Assembly (NCBI GenBank): GCA_000752675.2
Contig: LM994627.1
Location: 17,608-81,607 of the forward strand
DNA: 64,000 bases
Source of the DNA: a bacterium OL-1
GTDB taxonomy: Bacteria; Actinomycetota; Coriobacteriia; Coriobacteriales; Atopobiaceae
Reading direction: 5' to 3'
Shown here in pieces: positions 6,955 to 42,245 of the stretch. The notes under the pieces were generated by a model that saw only the letters and a list, made by a program, of their open reading frames with translations, did not search any database and was not told the DNA's origin. The translations under genes and the position numbers were made by a program. Position 1 is the stretch's first letter. Each line of letters opens with the position of its first letter.

Positions 6955-7713
6955 ATGCCAATCGAAGCCAACGGCGCACTGGGCCGCCTCTCCACTGGCG
7001 CTTCGCTTCTCGCCTCTGGCGCCGCCGAGCTTCTGTGGCCAACGCGCTGCGTCTCCTGCGAGATGCCCGGTGAGCTCGTCTGCGAGCAGTGCCGAGAAAA
7101 TCTCCCCTGGATTGCCCAGCGGTGGGCGTGTCCGGACTGCGGAGCTCCGTTTGGCTATCTCACCTGCACGGAGTGCACGCATGAGTGGGAGACGCGCACG
7201 ACCATCTGCGCACTGAGGTTTGCTGGCACCGCCGCCCGCATGGTCTCGTGCCTGAAGGACGCCCACGAGCTACGGCTGGCTCCCGTCATTGCCGCCGCCA
7301 TGGCAACGGCGCTGGACGAGGCATCCGCCTGGCCGGCGCGTGATGGCTGCGCGAGCTTTGACCCGCGGGCCATCGATGCCGTGTGCTTTGTGCCTGCTAC
7401 CTCGGCGGCGTTTGCGCGGCGAGGCTTTGACCACATGGAGCTCGTCTCCCGCGCGCTCTGTCGTGAGGAAGGTCTTTCCCTGGCCGATGTCCTTGTGCGT
7501 CCCTACTCTCGTGACCAGCGCACCCTGGGGCGAGAGGAACGTGCGGCCAACCTCGCGGGCACCATCTCAGTGTGTGATGACGTTTCGGGCCTTGACCTGC
7601 TGCTGCTTGATGACGTAATCACCACGGGGGCGTCGGTGCGCGAGGCGACGAGGGCGCTTCTTGCACGTGGTGCGGCGTCGGTGACGGCGTGCGCCCTTGC
7701 TCGCGTGTGGTGA
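6955..7713 (+). CDS. comF: ComF-family phosphoribosyltransferase-like protein
   Basis: 252-residue protein with an N-terminal zinc-finger-like region (CVSCEMPGELVCEQC and CPDCGAPF...CTEC, about residues 27-65) and a C-terminal type I phosphoribosyltransferase fold. The PRPP-binding loop is LLLLDDVITTGAS near residues 217-229. ComF/GntX proteins are linked with DNA uptake and recombination, but their substrate is unsettled. ATG 6955 was chosen because GGGGG precedes it and the protein begins shortly before the first zinc Cys. No other competence genes are next to it. Monocistronic as far as visible. Confidence 0.85.
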   Translation: MPIEANGALGRLSTGASLLASGAAELLWPTRCVSCEMPGELVCEQCRENLPWIAQRWACPDCGAPFGYLTCTECTHEWETRTTICALRFAGTAARMVSCLKDAHELRLAPVIAAAMATALDEASAWPARDGCASFDPRAIDAVCFVPATSAAFARRGFDHMELVSRALCREEGLSLADVLVRPYSRDQRTLGREERAANLAGTISVCDDVSGLDLLLLDDVITTGASVREATRALLARGAASVTACALARVW

Positions 7714-7748
7714 GGCTGCCTCGGCACAATCTGCCAGTTGCGCTGCTG

Positions 7749-7779
7749 TTGCTGGCTTTCGCCTGCTACCTGCTATAAT
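7749..7779 (+). promoter_or_regulatory. Strong extended -10 promoter for the raiA-type RNA
   Basis: TATAAT at 7774-7779 is preceded by TG one base upstream (extended -10, TGnTATAAT). TTGCTG at 7749-7754 is a -35 candidate with a slightly long 19-base spacer. The expected start, about seven bases after the -10 box, is 7785-7787, which is where the first base of the long closing stem of the RNA falls. Confidence 0.75.
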
Positions 7780-7784
7780 TTCCT

Positions 7785-8045
7785 GCGTTCCACCCAGGTC
7801 TGTGGTTGCGGGCGCATGCGTGCGCCCTAGTTCATGGCAGACGAGGCCAAAAGGATCCACGTAAGTCGTGGGGTGCGCCCTGCGGCGAGCACGGCTCGTC
7901 CTAGAGGTAAGTCGCACCGCCCGTTAGACAAGAGGCATACGGCCTCGCGGGCGAGAGGGCTGCGAGTGAGGGGCCGTGTAGCCCCAAAGCGGAGGCCCCA
8001 GTGCGCGAGTGTGGGGTCGAATACCAGGTCAGCTGGGTGGAACGC
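7785..8045 (+). ncRNA. raiA-type structured non-coding RNA
   Basis: About 261 nt with no real reading frame, closed by a perfect 13-bp stem: GCGTTCCACCCAG (7785-7797) pairs with CTGGGTGGAACGC (8033-8045). Internal hairpins include GGGCGCA/TGCGCCC (about 7811-7828), CCACG-TAAGT-CGTGG (about 7857-7871), and GGGGCC/GGCCCC-type pairs near 7970-8000. The word GTAAGTCG occurs twice, near 7861 and 7906. The position upstream of a ribosome hibernation gene (hpf/raiA) matches the published raiA motif RNA of Firmicutes and Actinobacteria. RNase P, tmRNA, 6S and SRP signatures were looked for and not found. The RNA appears to be its own transcription unit with a strong promoter. The family assignment rests on location, size and folding, not on a covariance-model hit. 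Confidence 0.72.
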
Positions 8046-8097
8046 TGCTCTTTACTAGTCCGACTTGAGCTTCTCGCCAGATGCTTCCCTTCTCGCG

Positions 8098-8207
8098 GCT
8101 TGCATTTTTCGATCGTTTAGCGGTGGCTAACCAATCGGAATCTGCAGATTCGCTAGCAGCTTGCATATTTCGATTGTTTAACCTCCTCTAACCAATCGAA
8201 ATTTGCA
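8098..8207. repeat. Two tandem palindromes with 61-bp period upstream of hpf
   Basis: The unit begins GCTTGCAT at 8098 and again at 8159. Each has an inner palindrome: CGATCGTTTA with TAACCAATCG in the first, and ATTTCGATTG with CAATCGAAAT in the second. Inner palindromes span about 8101-8146 and 8162-8207. They lie between the structured RNA and hpf and could be operators, processing sites or repeat-family members. The rest of 8208-8408 shows no gene. Confidence 0.65.
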
Positions 8208-8408
8208 TTGTCGCCGAGAGTGGCTCCTATGCTCTGCTGCGCCCGCCCTGACCTGCCGCGTCCACGCCGCTCTTTGCGTCCACTGCCCATATTCACTCGT
8301 CCGCCGCCTTTGCGCGTAACGCGCGGCCGCTTTGGGTACCTACCAAGTACGGCCAGACTCGCGTCGGTGCTTGCGCGGGAATGGCAGGGCAATCGATTGG
8401 AGGCACGC

Positions 8409-8999
8409 ATGGTTGACATCAAGATCTCGGGTCGCAAGGTCACCGTTTCCGACGCGCTGCGTGACCGAGTCAACGAGAAAATAGGGGACGCCCTCAAGGT
8501 ATTCGACATCTCTCCCATGAGCTGCGACGTCGTGCTTCGCGTTGACAAGAACCCCTCGAACCCTGATCGCAAGACCTGCGAGGTCACGGTCTTCGTGCGC
8601 AAGAACGTGGTGCGCGTTGTCGCCAGCGCCGATGACATGTACGCCGCCATCGACGAGGCGTCCGACAAGGTCACTCGCCAGCTGCGCAAGTACAAGACCC
8701 GCGTCATCGACCGTCGCCAGCGCTCCCAGGTGCCGCCGGCGCCCGTCCCCAGTGCAGACGAGCTTGCCAACCTCATCACGCCTGCGCCGGAGGAGGAAGA
8801 CGACCAGCTCGTGCGCGAGAAGTACGTCGAGCTCACGCCCATGAGCGAGGAGGAGGCCCTCGTCCAGACCGACCTTCTCGGCCATGATTTCTATGTGTTC
8901 ACAAACGCCACCACCGGCCTCGTCAACGTCATTTACCATAGGAAGAATGGCGGCTACGGCATCATCAAGCCCAAGGTCGAGGAAAACCCGGACGCGTAA
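8409..8999 (+). CDS. hpf: Long-form ribosome hibernation promoting factor
   Basis: 196-residue protein that binds 70S ribosomes and promotes 100S dimers in resting cells. The N-terminal RaiA/HPF domain (about 1-110) starts with MVDIKISGRKVTVSDALRD. A charged proline-containing linker (about 95-130) leads to the C-terminal dimerisation domain (about 140-196) with FYVFTNATTG and a YGIIKP tail, typical of the long form. ATG 8409 follows GGAGG at 8398-8402. The structured RNA lies about 360 bp upstream. The gap to degV is only 18 bp, so the two may be co-transcribed. Confidence 0.94.
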   Translation: MVDIKISGRKVTVSDALRDRVNEKIGDALKVFDISPMSCDVVLRVDKNPSNPDRKTCEVTVFVRKNVVRVVASADDMYAAIDEASDKVTRQLRKYKTRVIDRRQRSQVPPAPVPSADELANLITPAPEEEDDQLVREKYVELTPMSEEEALVQTDLLGHDFYVFTNATTGLVNVIYHRKNGGYGIIKPKVEENPDA

Positions 9000-9017
9000 G
9001 CGGGAAAGACTGAGCGA

Positions 9018-10112
9018 ATGGCAGAAGAGATAGACCAGAAGACCATAAGCGCCCAGGAGGAAGCTCCCCAATCGTCACAGGCACCGGCCGACGTCGCAGG
9101 CGTCGGCCGGCGCTACCATCAGAGGCGCAACGTTACGATCATCGTCGACTCAACCTCCGACTACGCCCCCGGCGTGGCGGAGCAGCTCGGCGTCGAGGTC
9201 ATCCCCTTTACCTACGTGGACTCCAACGGCGTGGAGCACGTGGATGACATGTGGAAGACCCAGGACCCGCACGAGTTCTACGAGAACATGCGCAAGCACC
9301 CCGAGACCCACTACACCACCAGCGCGGTGACGCCCGGCCGCTACCTCGAGATCTTCGAGAGGGCTGCCGAGGAGGGCCTGCCCATCATCTACATGGGGCT
9401 CTCCGAGGGCCTCTCGTCCTCCATCAACGCGGCGCGCCAGGCGTCGGACATGCTCCGCGAGAAGCATCCTGGGACCGAGATCTACGTCCTTGACAACCGC
9501 TGCGACTCCGCGGCAGGCGAGCTTCTCGCCATCGAGGTCGTGCGCCAGGCGTCGAACGGCCTCACGGCGCGCGAGCTCTACGACTGGGCCTCGGACGCGC
9601 GCTTCTTCATCCACGGCTACTTCACGCTCGACAGCTTTGATGCGCTTGCCGCGGGCGGCCGCATCCCGCCCGCCGCGGCCAACGTGGGCGGCAAGCTCGA
9701 CATCAAGCCCGAGCTCTCCTACGACCTCAACGGTGCCCTCACGCTGCGAGGCATGTGCCGCGGCCGCAAGAAGGCGCTGCGGGCCATCATCCAGGACTTC
9801 CGCGACAACTACGCGCATGACCCCTCGCTCCCGCTTGCCATCGTCTCGACCGACGCCGAGAAGGACGCGGACTGGCTCGAGCACGAGATCCGCAAGGAGA
9901 GGGGCTGCGAGGACGTCACCGTCATCCGCTCCTCGGTCTCGCCCATCCTGGGAACCCACGTAGGACCGGGCATGGTAGCCCTGGTTTTCTGGGGCACAGA
10001 CCGCCGCGAGAAGCTCTCGCTCACCGACCGCATCGCCAAGCGCGTGCGGGGGCGCGCGAGCAGCGGCGGCGATGCCCAAGACGCGCCCGGGACCCCGGGT
10101 GCGCAATCCTAG
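9018..10112 (+). CDS. DegV-family fatty-acid-binding protein
   Basis: 364-residue DegV-family protein. Members bind long-chain fatty acids and some (FakB) present them to the fatty acid kinase FakA. Family signatures are VTIIVDSTSDYAP near residue 38, VIPFTY, TTSAVTPGRYLEIF, the YMGLSEGLSSS lipid-binding loop and RIPPAAANVGG near residue 214. An N-terminal extension of about 35 charged residues and a Gly/Ala/Pro-rich tail after about 340 exceed the usual 280. No fakA is adjacent. It follows hpf with an 18-bp gap. Confidence 0.88.
   Translation: MAEEIDQKTISAQEEAPQSSQAPADVAGVGRRYHQRRNVTIIVDSTSDYAPGVAEQLGVEVIPFTYVDSNGVEHVDDMWKTQDPHEFYENMRKHPETHYTTSAVTPGRYLEIFERAAEEGLPIIYMGLSEGLSSSINAARQASDMLREKHPGTEIYVLDNRCDSAAGELLAIEVVRQASNGLTARELYDWASDARFFIHGYFTLDSFDALAAGGRIPPAAANVGGKLDIKPELSYDLNGALTLRGMCRGRKKALRAIIQDFRDNYAHDPSLPLAIVSTDAEKDADWLEHEIRKERGCEDVTVIRSSVSPILGTHVGPGMVALVFWGTDRREKLSLTDRIAKRVRGRASSGGDAQDAPGTPGAQS

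Positions 10113-39368: not shown

Positions 39369-42245
<2,877 letters not shown>

Follow-up and report, generated by a model that had tools for sequence, protein, structure and literature searches.

Between comFC and hpf, the Coriobacteriia bacterium OL-1 carries a clear yet ordinary copy of the known structured RNA raiA (ModT), and we consider it probable that this RNA acts independently and in trans as a housekeeping-like RNA for leaving growth, rather than as an hpf leader or a riboswitch. That raiA is a gene of its own is argued from its match to the Rfam family RF03072, its single copy, covariation in its helices, a promoter element that recurs in relatives, selection on the RNA where the lipoprotein gene that usually follows it is missing, and a separate conserved block in front of hpf. 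The window, meaning the whole stretch of DNA analysed, comprises 64,000 nt of contig LM994627.1, and all coordinates refer to it.

A full-length raiA RNA between comFC and hpf

The initial annotation, made from sequence alone, had placed a raiA-type structured RNA with a perfect 13-bp closing stem upstream of a long-form hpf gene, and named the Rfam raiA covariance model as the way to check it. That model (RF03072) matched window positions 7789-8041 on the + strand over its full length, model positions 1-209, with a score of 156.1 bits that lies far above the curated cut-off of 101.3 (E 4.8e-39). The two P1 arms at 7785-7797 and 8033-8045 are each 13 nt long and 100% complementary, forming perfect pairs that extend beyond the stem of the Rfam model. 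A genome search found raiA as a single copy in the 2.46-Mb genome. The features of the locus are listed below.

6955-7713, + strand: comFC, the usual upstream neighbour of raiA (Pfam DZR_2 and Pribosyltran; start codon chosen, frame open from 6799)
7771-7779, + strand: extended -10 of the raiA promoter, TGC TATAAT (TGCTATAAT), read from the sequence and recurring in the class
7785-8045, + strand: raiA (ModT) RNA including the full 13-bp P1 (RF03072 match plus P1 arms)
7810-7827, + strand: P2 hairpin, an insertion relative to the Rfam consensus (6 of 7 pairs double-changed, 92.1% of cells paired)
7840-7845, + strand: 5' strand of the pseudoknot pk-1, in the P3 loop (100% of cells paired, 4 of 6 pairs double-changed)
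7861-7868, + strand: first GTAAGTCG word (ACGTAAG part conserved, rest variable)
7865-7886, + strand: P5 hairpin (9 of 9 pairs double-changed, 88.2% of cells paired)
7895-7900, + strand: 3' strand of pk-1 (same pairs as 7840-7845)
7907-7914, + strand: second GTAAGTCG word (GTAAG part conserved)
8334-8339, + strand: GGGTAC, candidate sigma-B-type -10 of a separate hpf promoter (GGGTAY recurs upstream of hpf in the class)
8409-8999, + strand: hpf, long-form ribosome hibernation factor of 196 aa (Ribosomal_S30AE E 3.6e-25, Ribosom_S30AE_C E 1.5e-24)

Both S30AE domains agree with the long form given in the annotation. The repeated word it had pointed out, GTAAGTCG, begins at 7861 and 7907, with a third occurrence at position 39481 of the window. 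Across the class the GTAAG part of both raiA copies is well conserved, and the final three letters of the first one fall in a variable stem.

The locus shares with the raiA motif/ModT family the full-length match, P1, P2, P3b, pk-1, P5 and the 3' helices, as well as comFC upstream and hpf downstream, neighbours that an excerpt of PMC11706538 reports for 74% and 66% of raiA loci, respectively. Of 55 raiA loci, 51 have comFC upstream, 50 of these in the same orientation as the RNA; the comFC product in the window matches the ComF subfamily at 71.5 bits, below its cut-off of 233.55, and degV lies downstream of hpf. The P2 hairpin found here is absent from C. difficile according to the text available from PMC11706538. 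OLE and other large conserved bacterial RNAs resemble raiA in being large, conserved and structured with a non-coding role, as part of the same paper describes, but apart from one tRNA no other Rfam family, OLE included, reached its gathering score in the window.

The annotation was also correct in calling the genome Coriobacteriia-like, and raiA is common among its relatives. Of 60 genomes searched, comprising this one and 59 relatives, 55 gave a raiA match. A phylum-wide sample of 296 genomes yielded 101 with the RNA, each in one copy, and 100 of these matches scored above the cut-off. Four of the five relatives without a match (G016, G032, G049, G050, G054) are drafts of 57-90% completeness. 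Among these five, only the G032 locus was fetched; in this 95% complete genome, N runs and what looks like a wrong join interrupt the place expected for raiA, which would explain the missing RNA. The G032 contig (L185) has N runs and apparent wrong joins inside comFC and beside the lipoprotein gene. Within the literature searched, we found no paper combining raiA, structured RNA and Coriobacteri.

An extended -10 element marks the predicted 5' end of raiA

The extended -10 at 7771-7779 predicts a transcription start at about 7785-7787, on the first bases of P1, in agreement with the initial annotation. In counts made with no shuffle control, 65 of 80 class loci have the pattern TGnTAnnnT upstream of raiA, compared with 4 of 35 outside the class; the looser TAnnnT lies just upstream in 80 of 80 and 32 of 35, respectively. 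Within the class, raiA is as a rule preceded by an extended -10. The annotation had spoken of raiA's own strong promoter; the element is present and recurs in relatives, but its strength is unproven, since no good -35 accompanies it (TTGCTG at 7749-7754 sits 19 nt away) and a sigma-70 two-box consensus scan of 7500-9100 returned no promoter.

At the other end, P1 is followed only by TGCTCTTTAC, and no + strand terminator was returned when 7500-9100 was scanned, so transcription may continue from raiA towards hpf.

hpf is preceded by its own conserved promoter-like element

We weighed the possibility that raiA is a riboswitch-like 5' leader of whichever gene comes next, which would be hpf in the window and a lipoprotein gene in most of the class. 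The locus resembles a riboswitch in that raiA precedes an open reading frame of the same orientation, and Rfam itself types the family as 'Cis-reg; riboswitch'. Unlike a riboswitch, it shows no expression platform at raiA.

For hpf, a short leader joined to the gene is not what we found: the hpf ATG lies 367 nt beyond the Rfam end of raiA, a spacer that sets the window apart from the described family. Within the window's genus raiA is 96.9% identical and hpf 93.6%, a value that falls to 82.9% for the third positions of hpf; mean identity in the spacer is 33%, a figure lowered by length differences. The last ~100 nt before hpf are conserved in the genus, and this block includes GGGTAC at 8334-8339.

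Of the 58 class loci with a called start, 45 have the GGGTAY motif in the 120 nt preceding hpf (the other 22 of the 80, for which the fetched stretch held no called hpf start, were excluded), as do 4 of 28 outside the class. In 500 mononucleotide shuffles of the 58 the count averaged 3.9 and never exceeded 11. Its presence tracks a SigB/F/G gene, with the motif in 33 of 40 genomes that have the gene and 0 of 6 that do not (p 1.8e-4, or 5e-4 if the window's genus is counted once; the table omits 14 of the 60 genomes, which had no called hpf start or no fetched locus). An exact GGGTAY is missing before hpf in seven of the 40 SigB/F/G genomes, and no clear -35 accompanies the element. In excerpts of earlier papers, the SigB promoter of the S. 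aureus hpf operon has GGGTAT as its -10 (PMC6256015), and GGGTA is given as the -10 of an Actinoplanes SigB/F/G factor (PMC11205660). The recurrence and the SigB/F/G association make hpf look stress-sigma controlled, and raiA looks like a housekeeping gene; hpf may be a stress-sigma target in Coriobacteriia.

Because hpf lies 367 nt away behind its own GGGTAC element, raiA is probably not an hpf leader. As a cis target of raiA, hpf was rejected on its own promoter-like block and the unconserved spacer. The span 7749-8999 marked by the annotation has the right coordinates, but by our reading it holds two transcription units with two dispersed palindromic repeats (8101-8207) between them.

These repeats are tandem palindromes of ~46 nt at 8101-8146 and 8162-8207, spaced 61 nt apart, and are a further difference from the described raiA family. 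A 361-nt query gave 26 matches in the genome, a number that includes its own locus and both-strand palindrome matches, leaving fewer distinct places, and 1 to 25 matches in seven siblings, their own raiA-hpf regions included (the single match in G004 is the hpf block only). The repeats are often paired over ~107 nt and are REP/BIME-like. We rejected them as a part or terminator of raiA, since they are a dispersed family and are missing at the locus in five of seven siblings (present in G005 and G007). A link to a REP-type transposase was unsupported: the genome has one Y1_Tnp match, and the 3.3-kb stretches examined at four such genes from the genus hold no copy of the repeat.

A solute-binding lipoprotein gene follows raiA in most of the class

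The next gene after raiA, on the same strand, encodes an SBP_bac_3-type lipoprotein in 70 of 80 class loci and in none of 35 outside the class (67 raiA loci were found there; the 35 fetched and counted are mainly but not only the higher-scoring ones). The median distance from the Rfam end to this gene is 41 nt and does not exceed 60 nt in 47 of the 70 loci, although start calls are approximate and those of G020 and G178 are wrongly placed. The ten class loci with no adjoining lipoprotein gene belong to the eight genomes of the window's genus and to G021 and G296; G328, congeneric with the latter two, keeps it. In a search of the 60 genomes the raiA-side orthologs form a group of their own: all 46 adjoining a found raiA match at E 4.4e-65 or better, the following tier starts at 2.5e-36, and the window's genus has the lower tier only. 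The statement that raiA lies upstream of hpf is therefore literally true for the window, but the arrangement looks derived within the class, through loss of the intervening lipoprotein gene, and hpf seems to have a promoter of its own.

The lipoprotein resembles amino-acid-binding proteins, with Pfam PF00497 in three of three scanned and AncQR as its best PDB profile match (E 8.3e-45). The TITEER motif of AncQR is kept in 0 of 24 aligned lipoproteins, some of which have R or K nearby; the arginine of this motif holds the carboxylate of the ligand. The protein (L042:3286-4242, with orthologs in the 70 class loci) is an orphan and divergent, with 26-50% identity to the first of the 24 aligned, and one or two further SBP genes follow it in 4 of 55 loci. 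A link between raiA and periplasmic-binding proteins has already been reported, from an earlier bioinformatic paper, in an excerpt of PMC11477304; the association itself is known, and what is new here is its class-wide spacing, its absence in the window's genus and the counts.

The close, co-oriented lipoprotein gene is what most favours a leader function, together with the 3' end of raiA. A T-rich tract, defined as five or more T in 8 within 30 nt past the Rfam end, follows raiA in 19 of 35 loci outside the class against 8 of the 70 with the lipoprotein gene (p 7e-6; T content 21.2% and 18.7% in the same two groups), as if the terminator had been lost and the two units fused. Among the class loci that have no lipoprotein gene, 6 of 10 carry the tract: 4 of 8 from the window's genus and 2 of 2 from G021 and G296. 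Under a second measure, taken after the P1 extension, the counts were 15 of 35 for loci outside the class, 7 of 80 for class loci and 3 of 8 for the window's genus. The pattern is consistent with terminator loss at the joining of the lipoprotein gene to raiA, with the caveat that the loci are related and not independent.

Against a leader function, raiA is 96.9% identical within a genus that has no lipoprotein gene beside it, which indicates that the RNA is under selection independent of that gene's presence; in this persistence, and in the promoter-like element that hpf has of its own, the locus differs from riboswitches. The 5' strand of P1 and the Shine-Dalgarno of the lipoprotein gene show no coevolution: masking of the latter by the former was rejected at -6.24 kcal/mol against -6.22 for permuted pairs (p 0.47; 68 of the 70 loci). 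Complementation in trans has been published in Clostridium (PMC11706538, in the part available). On balance we regard a leader function as unlikely.

A bolder version is that raiA in Coriobacteriia lost its terminator and became fused to a dedicated orphan solute-binding lipoprotein, the two forming a nutrient-sensing unit of RNA and surface sensor for growth exit. The window's genus would then be a natural deletion of the sensor half, with the RNA working alone, independent of c-di-GMP, sporulation and hpf. We hold this as a speculative idea that is rather improbable as a whole.

raiA persists in genomes with no detected Spo0A or GGDEF domain

Returning to the preferred reading of an independent trans-acting RNA, we asked how it relates to c-di-GMP and sporulation, through which raiA might act here as reported for C. 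difficile. Excerpts of PMC11706538 report that deletion of modT in that organism raises c-di-GMP and lowers sporulation, and that ModT there is abundant and acts in trans. No Spo0A_C domain was found in any of the 60 genomes, with a positive B. subtilis control. No GGDEF domain was found in this 99% complete genome or in 29 of the 60 genomes, 27 of which carry raiA, and no EAL domain in seven of eight genomes of the window's genus. Because Spo0A_C was found in none of the 60 genomes and GGDEF was not found in this one, sporulation and c-di-GMP are unlikely as core raiA roles here, and we give very little credence to action through both as in C. difficile.

Covariation supports the raiA fold across the class

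The structure tested was taken from the Rfam model and the cryo-EM description in PMC11751092, which was available in part and describes pk-1, here written as a pseudoknot. Helix names beyond P1-P3, P5 and pk-1 are our own assignment, and the scored set excludes P4 and pk-2. We aligned 80 class raiA sequences, 79 of them distinct, and dropped the one identical row before the covariation count; one pk-1 pair (7839 with 7901, A-C in the window) and one P1c pair, both non-standard in the window, were also left out.

Across the 79 distinct sequences 94.1% of cells are paired, pk-1 included, and 55 of 69 pairs have changes on both sides. Sliding the partner by 1-3 columns lowers pairing to 31-45%. 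The initial annotation had named loss of the closing stem in close relatives, with no compensating changes, as a result that would count against it; the stem is kept, with compensating changes on both sides in 11 of 12 pairs of the P1a/P1b helix. The pseudoknot joins the P3 loop to the P5-P6 junction, as in the raiA family, and one of its pairs is C-G in 40 sequences and A-U in 39. Pairing is weakest in the helices of the P8 tip, at 73.8-77.6% of cells, and P3a varies on one side only.

The notion that a GC-rich intergenic stretch simply folds well by chance, which the 66% GC of raiA might invite since GC-rich DNA folds, is refuted with next to no room left for it by the covariance-model E of 4.8e-39, by a predicted fold of the 261-nt stretch at -130.1 kcal/mol against -111.3 +/- 5.2 when shuffled (z -3.59, 0 of 200 shuffles as low), and by 784 double-change cells against 250.5 +/- 15.9 in shuffles.

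Proposed role of raiA in Coriobacteriia

In the explanation we favour, raiA would be a one-copy gene of its own, on which RNA polymerase would start near 7785-7787 from a housekeeping-type extended -10 promoter. The transcript would adopt the known compact shape, closed by P1 and locked by pk-1, and would be released with P1 as its boundary through processing or weak termination past P1. It may then act in trans as a stable housekeeping-like RNA that aids timely exit from exponential growth, and hpf would have a transcript of its own, made from a stress-type promoter near 8334. The trans action, the abundance and the role at the growth transition are proposed by extension from published Clostridium work.

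raiA is a widespread RNA and, in Clostridium, an abundant one, and the published phenotypes, as far as the excerpts cover them, point to sporulation, aggregation and c-di-GMP. The authors of PMC11706538 argue, in the text available, that non-sporulating hosts indicate a more basic role for raiA, and our c-di-GMP and lipoprotein observations sharpen that argument. The RNA is kept without Spo0A, without a GGDEF match (in 27 of 55 raiA genomes) and without its usual downstream gene, which speaks against three candidate core functions at once. The window's genus thus offers a minimal genetic background for finding the partner of raiA and narrows the possible role of this RNA.
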